Shown here: piece after piece, positions 21,771 through 28,659 of the stretch
Layout: each line of letters begins with the position of its first letter
Position numbering within the stretch: position 1 is the first letter of the stretch
Assembly: GCA_001664505.1 (NCBI GenBank)
Contig: CP011806.1
Location: forward strand, 3,884,815 to 3,948,814
From: Acidobacteria bacterium Mor1
Lineage (GTDB): Bacteria; Acidobacteriota; Polarisedimenticolia; Polarisedimenticolales; Polarisedimenticolaceae
Direction: 5' to 3'
Length of the DNA stretch: 64,000 nucleotides
Made by a program: the position numbers and the translations under genes
Notes under the pieces: generated by a model
What the model saw: only the letters and a program-made list of their open reading frames with translations
Told to the model about the DNA's origin: nothing
Database searches by the model: none

Positions 21771-23303
21771 CTAGGGCGCCGAGCCCGCCGCGGCTCCGGC
21801 GCTTCCGCCGGTCTCGCCGACCAGTTCGCCGATGCGCTCGACCAGCGCCTCGCCCCGCACGTCGACGTCGACCACCTTGCCCTGGCGGTCCAGCAGGATC
21901 ATGGTCGGGATGCCGCTGACCCGGTAGCGCTGGGCCAGTTCCGCCTCCCAGCCCTTTCCGTCGTAGATCTGCGGCCAGGAGATCTCGCGCTCTTCGAGCT
22001 CTTCCAGAAAGGCTTCCCGGTCGTCGTCGTCGAGGCTGACCCCGATGATCTCGAAGCCCTGTTCGGCGTACCTGGCGTAGGCGTCCTTGAGGTGCGGTAG
22101 TTCCTGAATGCAGGGGCCGCACCAGGTGGCCCAGAAATCGACCAGCACGACCTTGCCTTCCATGGCGCTCAGGGTCAGCTCGTTCCCGTCCAGATCGGTT
22201 CCACGGAACTGATCCCGCTCGAGTTCGAACAGCGGGTTGCGGGCGCGTTCCCAGGCGTAGTCGAGCACGTCTTCATCTTCGCCGCAGGCCGCGCAGAACG
22301 CTTCGTAGTGCTCCCGCACCTCGGGCGTGATCTCCTTGCCCGCGCGCTCGTAGGCGATGCGCATGCGCCACATGCAGGCCTTGGCCGCGGCGGAACTCCC
22401 GCCGTGTTCGGCGATCAGGGTGGTCAGGTAATTTTCGGCCTCGTCACGCCGGGTGCCGGCGGCCGCGGCGGTCTCTTCGTCGTCCCCCTCTTCGGGCGCC
22501 GACATCAGTCGCGCCTGAGCCGCGATCAACATCGCCTCGGGGCGATGTTCGCTGCCGGCGAAGGTGTCGAGGAACCAGAGCGCCTGCTGCTGAACCCAGG
22601 GTCCGTCGTGCAGGCCCCAGGGATCTCGATATTCGTTGTAGGCCAGGGCGGTCTTGAGGATCTCGGCTCCGGCGGCATCCCGATCGGCGGCGTCGGGATG
22701 GTCGGCGATGTAGCGCTTGAGCGAGGCGATCTTGTTGTCGTAGATCGACCACTGGTTCTCGTAGAAGGAGTCCATGTCATAGAGCGTCGACATGGCGTAG
22801 AGCCTGGTCTCGTCGGCCGAAAAGGACTCGTTCAGTTTCTCCAATGATTCGAACGCGCTCGCGTTGGCCGGTTCGAGTTCGGTGTGCAGTTTGCGCGTGC
22901 GCTCTTTCCACTCGCTCTCGTTCTGCTCCATCCCTTCGAGCAGCGAATCGAAACGGGCCAACTCTCGCAGGCTGTCGAGATCGCTGTCCGAGCCGGCATG
23001 CTCTGCGTCCATCCAACCGGTGTCCACCGCGGTGGTGAGCGCTTCCAGGGCACCGGCACTGTCCCCCTTGAGTGCTCGGGCGCAGGCGAGGTTGTAGTGC
23101 ACCGAGGAATCTTCCGGCGCCAGGTCGGCTTGGCGTTGGCGGAGCTTCACCAGCTTCTTGAAGTTGCCGTCTGCCTGGGCTTCCGAAGCTTGCTCGGCAA
23201 GCTTGCGGTAGCGCTTGACGTCCTTGGGCGTCCCGGCGAAGAGCGCCGTGGCCAGGCTGGAGAGCAGAACGATGGCGGCAACACGGCCGATGGAACGATG
23301 CAT
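21771..23303 (-). CDS. Exported TPR protein with C-terminal TlpA/ResA-like thioredoxin domain
   Basis: 510 aa. An N-terminal signal peptide (AAIVLLSSLATALFAG) is followed by TPR-like helical repeats (about 30-130; VHYNLACARALKGDSAGALEALTTAV) and a long helical middle. The C-terminal 140 residues are a TlpA/ResA-type thioredoxin domain: VVLVDFWATWCGPCIQELPHLK with the CxxC at about 394-398, and the cis-Pro region VSGIPTMILLD. It is predicted to be periplasmic or extracytoplasmic and to reduce disulfides, perhaps during cytochrome c or secreted-protein maturation. The C-terminal Ala/Gly tail is low complexity. It is monocistronic as seen. Confidence 0.88.
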   Translation of the reverse strand: MHRSIGRVAAIVLLSSLATALFAGTPKDVKRYRKLAEQASEAQADGNFKKLVKLRQRQADLAPEDSSVHYNLACARALKGDSAGALEALTTAVDTGWMDAEHAGSDSDLDSLRELARFDSLLEGMEQNESEWKERTRKLHTELEPANASAFESLEKLNESFSADETRLYAMSTLYDMDSFYENQWSIYDNKIASLKRYIADHPDAADRDAAGAEILKTALAYNEYRDPWGLHDGPWVQQQALWFLDTFAGSEHRPEAMLIAAQARLMSAPEEGDDEETAAAAGTRRDEAENYLTTLIAEHGGSSAAAKACMWRMRIAYERAGKEITPEVREHYEAFCAACGEDEDVLDYAWERARNPLFELERDQFRGTDLDGNELTLSAMEGKVVLVDFWATWCGPCIQELPHLKDAYARYAEQGFEIIGVSLDDDDREAFLEELEEREISWPQIYDGKGWEAELAQRYRVSGIPTMILLDRQGKVVDVDVRGEALVERIGELVGETGGSAGAAAGSAP

Positions 23304-26485: not shown

Positions 26486-26546
26486 ACGACTAATATGGGC
26501 GTGGCGCGATGGGCGGGCAAACCACGGAAACGTAACGAGGTGCAAC

Positions 26547-26951
26547 ATGAGCGACCGCATGGAGAAGACCGAGCAGCAGTGGCGGGAGCAGCTCACCGAC
26601 GAGCAGTACCGGGTGACCCGGATGAAGGGCACCGAGCCGCCGTTTACCGGGGAGTACGTCGACTGCAAGGATGACGGCATCTATCGCTGCGTGTGCTGCG
26701 GCAACGAGCTGTTCGACTCCGGCACGAAGTACGACTCGGGGTCGGGCTGGCCCAGCTTCTTCGAGGCTCTCGACGATGACCGGGTGCGTACCGAGGTCGA
26801 CCTGAGCCACGGGATGCGCCGCGTCGAGGTGTTGTGCGGCAAGTGCGACGCTCACCTGGGGCACGTCTTCGACGACGGACCGCACCCCACGGGCAAGCGC
26901 TTCTGCATCAACTCCTGCGCCCTGAACTTCGACGAGCGGGGCGACGAGTAA
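26547..26951 (+). CDS. msrB: Peptide-methionine (R)-S-oxide reductase MsrB
   Basis: 134 aa, ATG at 26547 with GAGG six to seven bases upstream. Two CxxC motifs for structural zinc are present (CVCCG near residue 49 and CGKC near 94). [23 protein letters not shown] and the catalytic RFCINS (Cys about residue 119) complete the family signature. It reduces methionine-R-sulfoxide in proteins. The usual Ser-Ala after INS is replaced by Cys-Ala, which puts an extra cysteine next to the active site and could serve as a resolving residue. No signal peptide, so cytoplasmic. It is followed 62 bases later by the selenoprotein gene. Confidence 0.95.
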
Positions 26952-27013
26952 GCACGACAAGATCCGAGCCGGTGGGGCTTTCTTCCCGTAGACTCAACCC
27001 GAGGGAGAACGCT

Positions 27014-27757
27014 ATGTGGAAGAAAGTCCTGCTCGGCGGGTTGCTGTTGATCCTGACGGTGGCCACCGTGGCCTTTTTCTGGATCGGGCCCCGTTTCGTC
27101 ATCGGCATCCTGACCTACGGCCAGCAGGCCCACGACGGTCCGCTGAAACCGGGCGATCCGGCGCCGATCGTGACGGTGGTCGATATCGACGGCAATTCCC
27201 GGGAGCTCAGCGAGTGGATCGGCCCCAAGCCGGTGGTGCTGGTCTTCGGCAGCTTCACCTGACCTCCCTTCCGCCGCTCGGTCGAGCGGATCACGGAGCT
27301 GCAGCAGCAGTACGGCGACACCGCCGAGTTCCTGACCATCTACATCAAGGAAGCTCATCCCGAGGATGAGTGGCAGGTGGATTCCAACGAGGACGAAGGG
27401 GTCTGCTACCGGCAGCCCAAGACCCTCGACGAGCGCCGCGCCATCGTGCAGGACTTCACCAAGCGCTTCGACTACACCGTGCCGATGGTGGTCGACACCA
27501 TGGACGACCTGGCCGAGGACGCCTACTCCAGTTGGCCCGAGCGGCTGTATGTGATCGGGACCGACGGCACGATCGCCTACAAGGGGGGTGTCGGTCCGTT
27601 CGGCTTCGAACCCGACGAGGTCGAGGCCTGGCTCGCCGACTACGCCGCGAACATGCCGCCGGTCGATGAGCAGGTCCCGGGCGGGGTTGAAGAAGACGCG
27701 GGCGACGGCATGCCCGCCGCGGAGAGCGCGGCGGAAGCCGCAGCCGCGGGGGCCTGA
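27014..27757 (+). CDS. Iodothyronine deiodinase-family selenoprotein (UGA-encoded Sec at residue 83)
   Basis: Reading straight through one in-frame TGA at 27260-27262 gives 247 aa. The frame before the TGA ends VVLVFGSFT and resumes PPFRRSVERI, reproducing the deiodinase active-site pattern FGSxT-Sec-PPF. Downstream are further family marks: IYIKEAHPEDEW, VPMVVDTMDD, PERLYVI and YKGGVGPFGF. The N-terminus is one membrane anchor (about 4-26), so the thioredoxin-fold domain is probably extracytoplasmic. ATG at 27014 has GGGAG eight bases upstream. A SECIS-like hairpin follows the TGA. The Ala/Glu-rich tail is a variable extension. In animals the family deiodinates thyroid hormone; the bacterial substrate is unknown and may be a peroxide or thiol compound. 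A nonsense mutation is unlikely because the frame stays conserved on both sides. Confidence 0.9.
27260..27296 (+). promoter_or_regulatory. Bacterial SECIS-like element directing Sec insertion
   Basis: Starting at the TGA, CCGCTC (27274-27279) and GAGCGG (27284-27289) form a perfect 6-bp stem with a GGTC loop (27280-27283). CCG/CGG (27271-27273, 27294-27296) can extend it across a small bulge. The loop guanines lie 17 bases beyond the TGA, within the usual range for SelB-recognised elements. The E. coli fdhF element also presents GGUC at its apex. Function is inferred. Confidence 0.75.
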
Positions 27758-27771
27758 CCGGAGGCGCGATC

Positions 27772-28659
27772 GTGGCAAGGGGAACCCCCGAGGCGGAGTG
27801 GCCGATCGACGCCGAGTTGGTCCGCGCACTACTTCGCCGGCAGCATCCCGACCTGGCGGACCTGCCTCTGGTCGAGGTGGCGGCGGGCTGGGACAACGCC
27901 ATGCTGCGCCTGGGGGACGAACTCGCCGTGCGGTTGCCGCGGCGCCAGGCGGCGGCGGAGCTGATCCTCAAGGAGCAACGCTGGCTTCCGTTGTTGGCGC
28001 CGTCGTTGCCCCTCGCGACTCCCGTGCCGCTACGCATCGGCCGGCCATCTCCGGACTATCCCTGGAGCTTCAGCGTGACCCCCTGGCTCGATGGTGAGAG
28101 CGCCGATCGCCGCCCGCCCGCTGCCGACCAGGCCTCTGCCCTCGGTGGTTTTCTCGCCACGCTACACAAACCGGCTCCCGATGATGCGCCGCGCAACCCG
28201 GTGCGGGGCGTGCCGCTAAGCGAACGGGCCGAGGCGATGGCTCCACGGATCGCCAGGCTCCGGGCCGCAGGACTGTTCGGCGACGGCCACGCCGCGATCT
28301 GGCGGGAGGCCCTGGAAGCACCCCTTTGCATCGAGCCGACCTGGATCCACGGGGACCTCCATCCCCGCAACGTGCTGGTGCAGGAAGGCCGCCTCAGCGC
28401 GGTCATCGACTGGGGCGACCTGGCGGTAGGGGATCCGGCCACCGATCTCGCGTCGCTCTGGATGCTGTTCGCGGATCCGGCAGTGCGTGAGGAGGCGCTA
28501 CGGGCGAGACAGGGCGTGACCGCGGTGACCCGGAAGCGGGCGCGAGGCTGGGCGCTTTTGTTTGCCATCGTGTTGGCCGATACCGGGCTCGTCGACCACC
28601 CGGAGCATCTGGCCATCGGCAAACGGGTGCTCCACACCCTCGGCGGCTCGCCGGCCTAG
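27772..28659 (+). CDS. APH-family phosphotransferase (aminoglycoside phosphotransferase fold)
   Basis: 295 aa, GTG start at 27772 with GGAGG eight bases upstream and 14 bases after the selenoprotein stop, so probably co-transcribed. Kinase-like catalytic motifs are present: IHGDLHPRNVLV (Brenner loop, about residue 193) and AVIDWGDLAVGDPATDLASLW (metal-binding Asp). The N-lobe shows LGDELAVRLPRR. APH-fold enzymes phosphorylate antibiotics, choline, homoserine or other small molecules; genuine resistance cannot be inferred. The final stop overlaps that of the convergent small gene (CTAG shared). Confidence 0.85.
   Translation: MARGTPEAEWPIDAELVRALLRRQHPDLADLPLVEVAAGWDNAMLRLGDELAVRLPRRQAAAELILKEQRWLPLLAPSLPLATPVPLRIGRPSPDYPWSFSVTPWLDGESADRRPPAADQASALGGFLATLHKPAPDDAPRNPVRGVPLSERAEAMAPRIARLRAAGLFGDGHAAIWREALEAPLCIEPTWIHGDLHPRNVLVQEGRLSAVIDWGDLAVGDPATDLASLWMLFADPAVREEALRARQGVTAVTRKRARGWALLFAIVLADTGLVDHPEHLAIGKRVLHTLGGSPA

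Follow-up and report, generated by a model that had tools for sequence, protein, structure and literature searches.

Examination of the window, the whole 64,000-nucleotide stretch of DNA analysed here, reveals a gene for a deiodinase-like selenoprotein whose frame is open from its ATG to an in-frame TGA at codon 83 and then runs on from that codon to a TGA stop at 27755-27757 (Table 1). The observed read-through gene is confirmed as real and lies far beyond chance. The boundaries and the lone in-frame TGA given in an earlier note, made from the sequence alone, proved exact and define one frame; the ribosome site that it placed ahead of the gene is present, and all of the motifs that it quoted (FGSFT-U-PPF, IYIKEAHPEDEW, VVDTMDD, PERLYVI, and YKGGVGPFGF) were found. 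As that note also anticipated, the standard code divides the gene into an 82-residue fragment and a separate C-terminal ORF at 27377-27757. An MsrB-type methionine sulfoxide reductase gene, possibly co-transcribed with the deiodinase-like gene, lies just 5′ of it, and an APH-type phosphotransferase gene, probably part of the same transcript, follows.

Table 1. Features of the deiodinase-like gene and its immediate neighbours (window positions)
Feature	Position	Strand	Details and basis
MsrB-type methionine sulfoxide reductase gene (SelR domain)	26523..26951	+	PF01641, 2.7e-51; 62 nt 5′ of the deiodinase-like gene
Ribosome-binding site AGGGAG	27002..27007	+	6 nt 5′ of the ATG; read directly from the sequence
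Deiodinase-like selenoprotein gene	27014..27757	+	247 residues, Sec83, TGA stop
N-terminal anchor helix	27014..27127	+	Model residues 2-38, hydrophobic core about 5-27, KK in front; AlphaFold2 model and sequence
In-frame TGA decoded as Sec83 within FGSFT-U-PPF	27260..27262	+	TGA or Cys in aligned homologues; Sec machinery in the genome
Candidate bacterial SECIS	27264..27298	+	Fold energy, synonymous recodings, family-wide signal
Y110, E113, H115, D118, and W120 (YIKEAHPEDEW), start of the deiodinase-specific loop	27341..27373	+	Alignment with Dio2/Dio3 numbering
Cys131, candidate resolving cysteine	27404..27406	+	9/9 in clade; tree; putative role
APH-type phosphotransferase (kinase) gene	27772-28659	+	Starts 15 nt past the deiodinase-like stop

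The full read-through protein matches the iodothyronine deiodinase family PF00837 at 9.1e-38 (130.3 bits against a Pfam gathering cut-off of 27), and PF00578 and PF08534 match it as well. Its best NCBIfam match, NF038285, covers the catalytic domain at 198.2 bits, under the curated cut-off of 250 bits; this model spans 347 positions and, unlike the window gene, is extended at its N-terminal end. A sequence search of the PDB retrieved mouse Dio3 (4tr3, 9.8e-27), with Dio3 and Dio2 as the only solved relatives of weight. In an AlphaFold2 model (pLDDT 87.8), the protein adopts a thioredoxin-type fold with the deiodinase-specific insertion, and Foldseek and structural Z scores place it nearest mouse Dio2 and Dio3 (Z 24.7 and 24.5, with 169-171 residues aligned; next best 17.6). 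After these two come peroxiredoxins (Bcp, AhpE, and Tpx), along with thiol oxidoreductases that include ResA; peroxiredoxins and ResA/TlpA-type proteins share the thioredoxin fold and have a redox residue where the first helix begins, but they score lower (Z up to 17.6) and lack the EAHPxDxW deiodinase-specific loop. The model further contains the N-terminal anchor helix predicted in the earlier note, a pattern shared by the members of the gene’s clade (below), and the KK preceding the helix suggests by the positive-inside rule an N-in topology with the catalytic domain outside the cytoplasm. The family identity proposed from the sequence is thus upheld by both sequence search and predicted fold, and the gene product is, by computation, an iodothyronine deiodinase family selenoenzyme with a membrane anchor and a thioredoxin/peroxiredoxin fold.

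Bacterial deiodinase-like proteins in Sec and Cys forms were reported in 2005 from the Sargasso Sea (PMC1088965), and the family is included in selenoprotein reviews of 2022 and 2026 (PMC9312934, PMC13188914); the window gene is a new member of this family, and the family itself is not new. Within the open-licence literature, no paper describing the function of these proteins was found. The window gene resembles the published bacterial family in its Pfam assignment, its bacterial origin, its UGA-encoded Sec with a bacterial SECIS, and the existence of Sec and Cys forms. The motif given for the bacterial family in the reviews, however, is UxxC, which occurs here only in homologue L086 (U-P-F-C), whereas the window gene and most homologues carry the animal-like UPPF type without a CxxU or UxxC partner. 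With vertebrate Dio1-3 (PF00837; 4tr3, 9h48), the enzymes that strip iodine from thyroid hormone, the protein shares the Sec in GSxT-U-PPF, the N-terminal membrane anchor, the deiodinase-specific loop, the Ser/Thr/Tyr/Glu/His network, and the fold (Z about 24.6), but its SECIS is of the bacterial kind and lies inside the coding sequence.

The distribution of the family was investigated by scanning 396 genomes of the window’s phylum and 392 genomes of Planctomycetota, the phylum of a Phycisphaerales relative, with PF00837. The window’s phylum is probably Acidobacteriota, judging from the resemblance of genes found in it to an Acidobacteriaceae protein (L007). Matches were found in 26 of the 396 genomes, the best 15 all having exactly one TGA and the TGA form being present in 20 of the sampled genomes, and in 108 of the 392 planctomycete genomes, 95 of which hold at least one TGA copy (up to five per genome). 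Every aligned UPPF homologue has its TGA at the codon of residue 83 (FGSxT[U]PPF), and this identical-codon TGA spans homologues of two phyla, plus Gemmatimonadota. Identity to close homologues is 51-62% 3′ of the TGA versus 44-55% 5′ of it, in agreement with the earlier claim that the frame is kept on both sides; where that note would have counted plain stops without downstream conservation against its reading, the sequence after the TGA is conserved across phyla.

Alignment at residue 83 shows TGA in the Sec homologues and Cys in the Cys homologues, so the earlier statement that no homologous Cys reading exists was mistaken: FGNFTCGPF occurs in planctomycetes, FGSFTCPPF and FGNMTCGPF occur in further genomes lacking selA, and there are more distant Cys subfamilies too. 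The statement is true solely of the window gene’s own clade of nine members, all Sec and mixing two phyla, in which the nearest relative is a Phycisphaerales protein. Elsewhere in the tree, the UPPF branch has Cys forms nested among Sec groups at two or more points, and a split with 97/99 support places Dio2/Dio3 with the bacterial UPPF proteins. Among IMG/VR viral contigs queried with the window protein, no deiodinase-like gene was found, and plasmids gave just one distant match, from Mycolicibacterium. Several divergent forms were observed as well. Two deiodinase-related proteins of the window’s class (L027 and L028) have the active-site sequence GSASSSNF, with Ser replacing the expected Sec/Cys, and are possibly non-redox, while a third from the same class (L029, G015:C87) carries, fused to a TGA-containing GCLT-U-PPF domain, a longer C-terminal region with EF-hand-like repeats at its end. 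In another genome, the C-terminal part of the deiodinase-like gene is missing after GRDGRV (L070, G343:C36), with no full-length selA detectable; decay after the loss of Sec use was considered for this gene and dropped because the genome has selB.

The window’s genome (5.985 Mb, single contig, 99.98% complete) encodes selA (516 bits), selB (330 bits), and selD (358 bits), all over their cut-offs, together with a tRNA-Sec (selC) at 72.7 bits against a cut-off of 47, such that all four components that the earlier note had named for checking, and whose absence it would have taken as refutation, are present. The genome’s own selD (L055, G000:C1:2910488-2911429) has one in-frame TGA, and the selenophosphate synthetase is therefore itself likely a selenoprotein. 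Across genomes, the TGA form co-occurs with selA both in Planctomycetota (88/95 TGA-form genomes versus 154/297 others, p=1.9e-14) and in the window’s phylum (18/20 versus 233/376, p=0.015), these p-values being indicative because the counts ignore genome relatedness. All seven genomes of the named relatives (L002-L008) have selA. The assemblies of nine of the 115 TGA-form genomes are without selA, which is probably, though not provably, a matter of incompleteness. Conversely, among 13 planctomycete genomes with TGA-free matches only, six lack selA, and Cys stands at the position in all six. In three planctomycete genomes (L140, G511:C9; L141, G573:C2; and L008), about 1-8 kb separates the deiodinase-like gene from selA, with selB also present in L008 and L141; this proximity may reflect a link to selenium use.

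Just 3′ of the UGA, the candidate SECIS forms a hairpin with an upper stem (27274-27279/27284-27289), a small apical loop containing G (GGUC, 27280-27283), and a lower stem (27264-27267/27295-27298). Its RNA fold of −15.6 kcal/mol is modestly better than that of shuffles (z −1.1), and it is more stable than synonymous recodings at p about 0.04, a value that is only modestly significant alone. As the position of the apical loop varies by a few bases from one homologue to the next, the synonymous-recoding test was used in place of an alignment pairing count. Over the 39-base segment after the UGA, the mean z was −1.55 for 27 Sec genes and −1.13 for an independent set of 25 planctomycete genes, whereas the corresponding segment of 11 Cys genes had no extra stability (mean z +0.13) and other segments of the tested genes gave a much weaker signal. 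A search of the whole window against Rfam at gathering scores returned no match; such a result does not count against a SECIS of this kind.

These observations bear directly on what the TGA means. Under table 11, the frame is indeed interrupted, as it would be if the TGA were a genuine stop or had arisen by a sequencing error, leaving a pseudogene or a pair of genes; but homologues across phyla carry the same single TGA at one codon in correlation with selA, Cys replaces it in genomes lacking selA, and the hairpin is found in TGA genes only, by which this reading is refuted and left with a negligible probability. The frame would likewise open if a recoded genetic code assigned TGA to Trp, yet the window gene itself terminates in TGA, its TGA-free homologues have Cys and not Trp at the position, and the genome has a full Sec system, so that we reject this explanation as exceedingly improbable. 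Selenocysteine at codon 83 is thus very well supported, indeed nearly certain in our assessment, by the conserved TGA codon, the co-occurrence with selA, the Cys in selA-less genomes, and the hairpin confined to Sec genes, with Sec codon, SECIS-like structure, and Sec machinery each established computationally. Decoding would proceed through SelB and tRNA-Sec acting with the hairpin just 3′ of the UGA.

By alignment with Dio3, the protein retains the deiodinase proton-relay network (S80, T82, U83, Y110, E113, and H115), thus combining a GSxT-U-PPF Sec with the Tyr/Glu/His relay, and Y110, E113, H115, D118, and W120 correspond to Dio3 Tyr197, Glu200, His202, Asp205, and Trp207, residues whose roles have been described (PMC7506546, PMC11592359). 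The EAHPxDxW loop residues, Arg141, and Arg177 are retained across the UPPF branch. In Dio3, thyroxine binding is aided by His219 and Arg275, and the pocket is lined by Phe258 (PMC7506546; PMC11592359); the window protein has Pro135, Val193, and Pro175 in their places, and the replacement of His219 and Arg275 makes thyroxine an unlikely substrate, judging from the sequence. Dio3 Cys168 is replaced by Phe81 and Dio3 Cys239 has no Cys counterpart; the window protein instead has Cys131, its sole other Cys/Sec, in a loop bordering the active site. Cys131 is invariant in the nine-member clade (9/9), while other Sec homologues mostly have V, L, E, R, K, or I there. Whether Cys131 resolves oxidised Sec83 is, on this evidence, an evenly balanced proposition.

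The genomic neighbourhood was compared by clustering the window with 14 genome stretches and six further loci, and, apart from the deiodinase itself, its shadow frames, and pairs due to chance, no family recurred; therefore, we claim no operon-based function. Elsewhere in the window, a minus-strand gene at 21774-23303 encodes a long protein whose C-terminal domain is a thioredoxin of the TlpA/ResA type bearing WCGPC, a possible extracytoplasmic thiol partner.

Considering the above, the chemistry is most likely thiol-dependent reduction by Sec83, as peroxidase or reductive dehalogenase, and the likely role an extracytoplasmic one; reaction, substrate, and reductant are what we infer from sequence and fold. 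The catalytic domain would face away from the cytoplasm, and the Ser80/Thr82/Tyr110/Glu113/His115 network would tune the selenolate of Sec83, which would attack an electrophilic substrate atom such as a halogen or oxygen; the selenenyl species may then be resolved by Cys131 as a selenenylsulfide, which an external thiol would reduce. Taken jointly, the family identity, the Sec decoding, and a thiol-dependent redox role are held with good confidence.

Which of the two reductive activities applies is a finer question. Reduction of H2O2 or organic/lipid hydroperoxides outside the cytoplasm, in the manner of a Sec peroxiredoxin and without dehalogenation, has a little under an even chance of being correct: the fold neighbours beyond Dio2/Dio3 are peroxiredoxins and ResA-like thiol oxidoreductases, the PF00578 and PF08534 matches and the MsrB gene just 5′ point the same way, and a general redox role was favoured for the bacterial proteins by the authors of the 2005 report (PMC1088965). 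A plain peroxidase, however, would not need the EAHPxDxW residues, Arg141, and Arg177 that the UPPF branch has kept, and Cys131 does not decide the matter because a resolving cysteine fits peroxide reduction as well. The invariance of the animal deiodinases’ Ser/Thr/Sec/Tyr/Glu/His network and a predicted fold nearest Dio2/Dio3 would instead suit a reductive dehalogenase whose substrates are phenolic natural products bearing iodine or bromine; against this, the proposed thyroxine-holding His219 and Arg275 are replaced (PMC7506546) and no dehalogenation genes were seen nearby, so that we consider it possible but on balance doubtful. More speculatively, the nine-member Cys131 clade may represent a distinct extracytoplasmic selenoenzyme in which Sec83 and Cys131 form an atypical two-residue reductase whose natural substrate is halogenated or peroxidic, a proposal that we put forward as tentative and rather unlikely.

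Overall, Sec relatives of this enzyme occur in 95/392 Planctomycetota genomes and 20/396 genomes of the window’s phylum, yet to our knowledge deiodinases have been characterised enzymatically from animals only. Deiodinase-like genes of the TGA form are broken at the TGA by standard annotation. Given that the catalytic core is kept and the thyronine clamp is not, such proteins could reveal the role of the enzyme without thyroid hormone, and the Cys131 clade, together with the natural Cys forms (FGSFTCPPF), offers concrete, easily expressed proteins for tests of function. If the Sec83-Cys131 reading of the clade is true, the clade would illustrate how the deiodinase fold was used in the absence of thyroid hormone.
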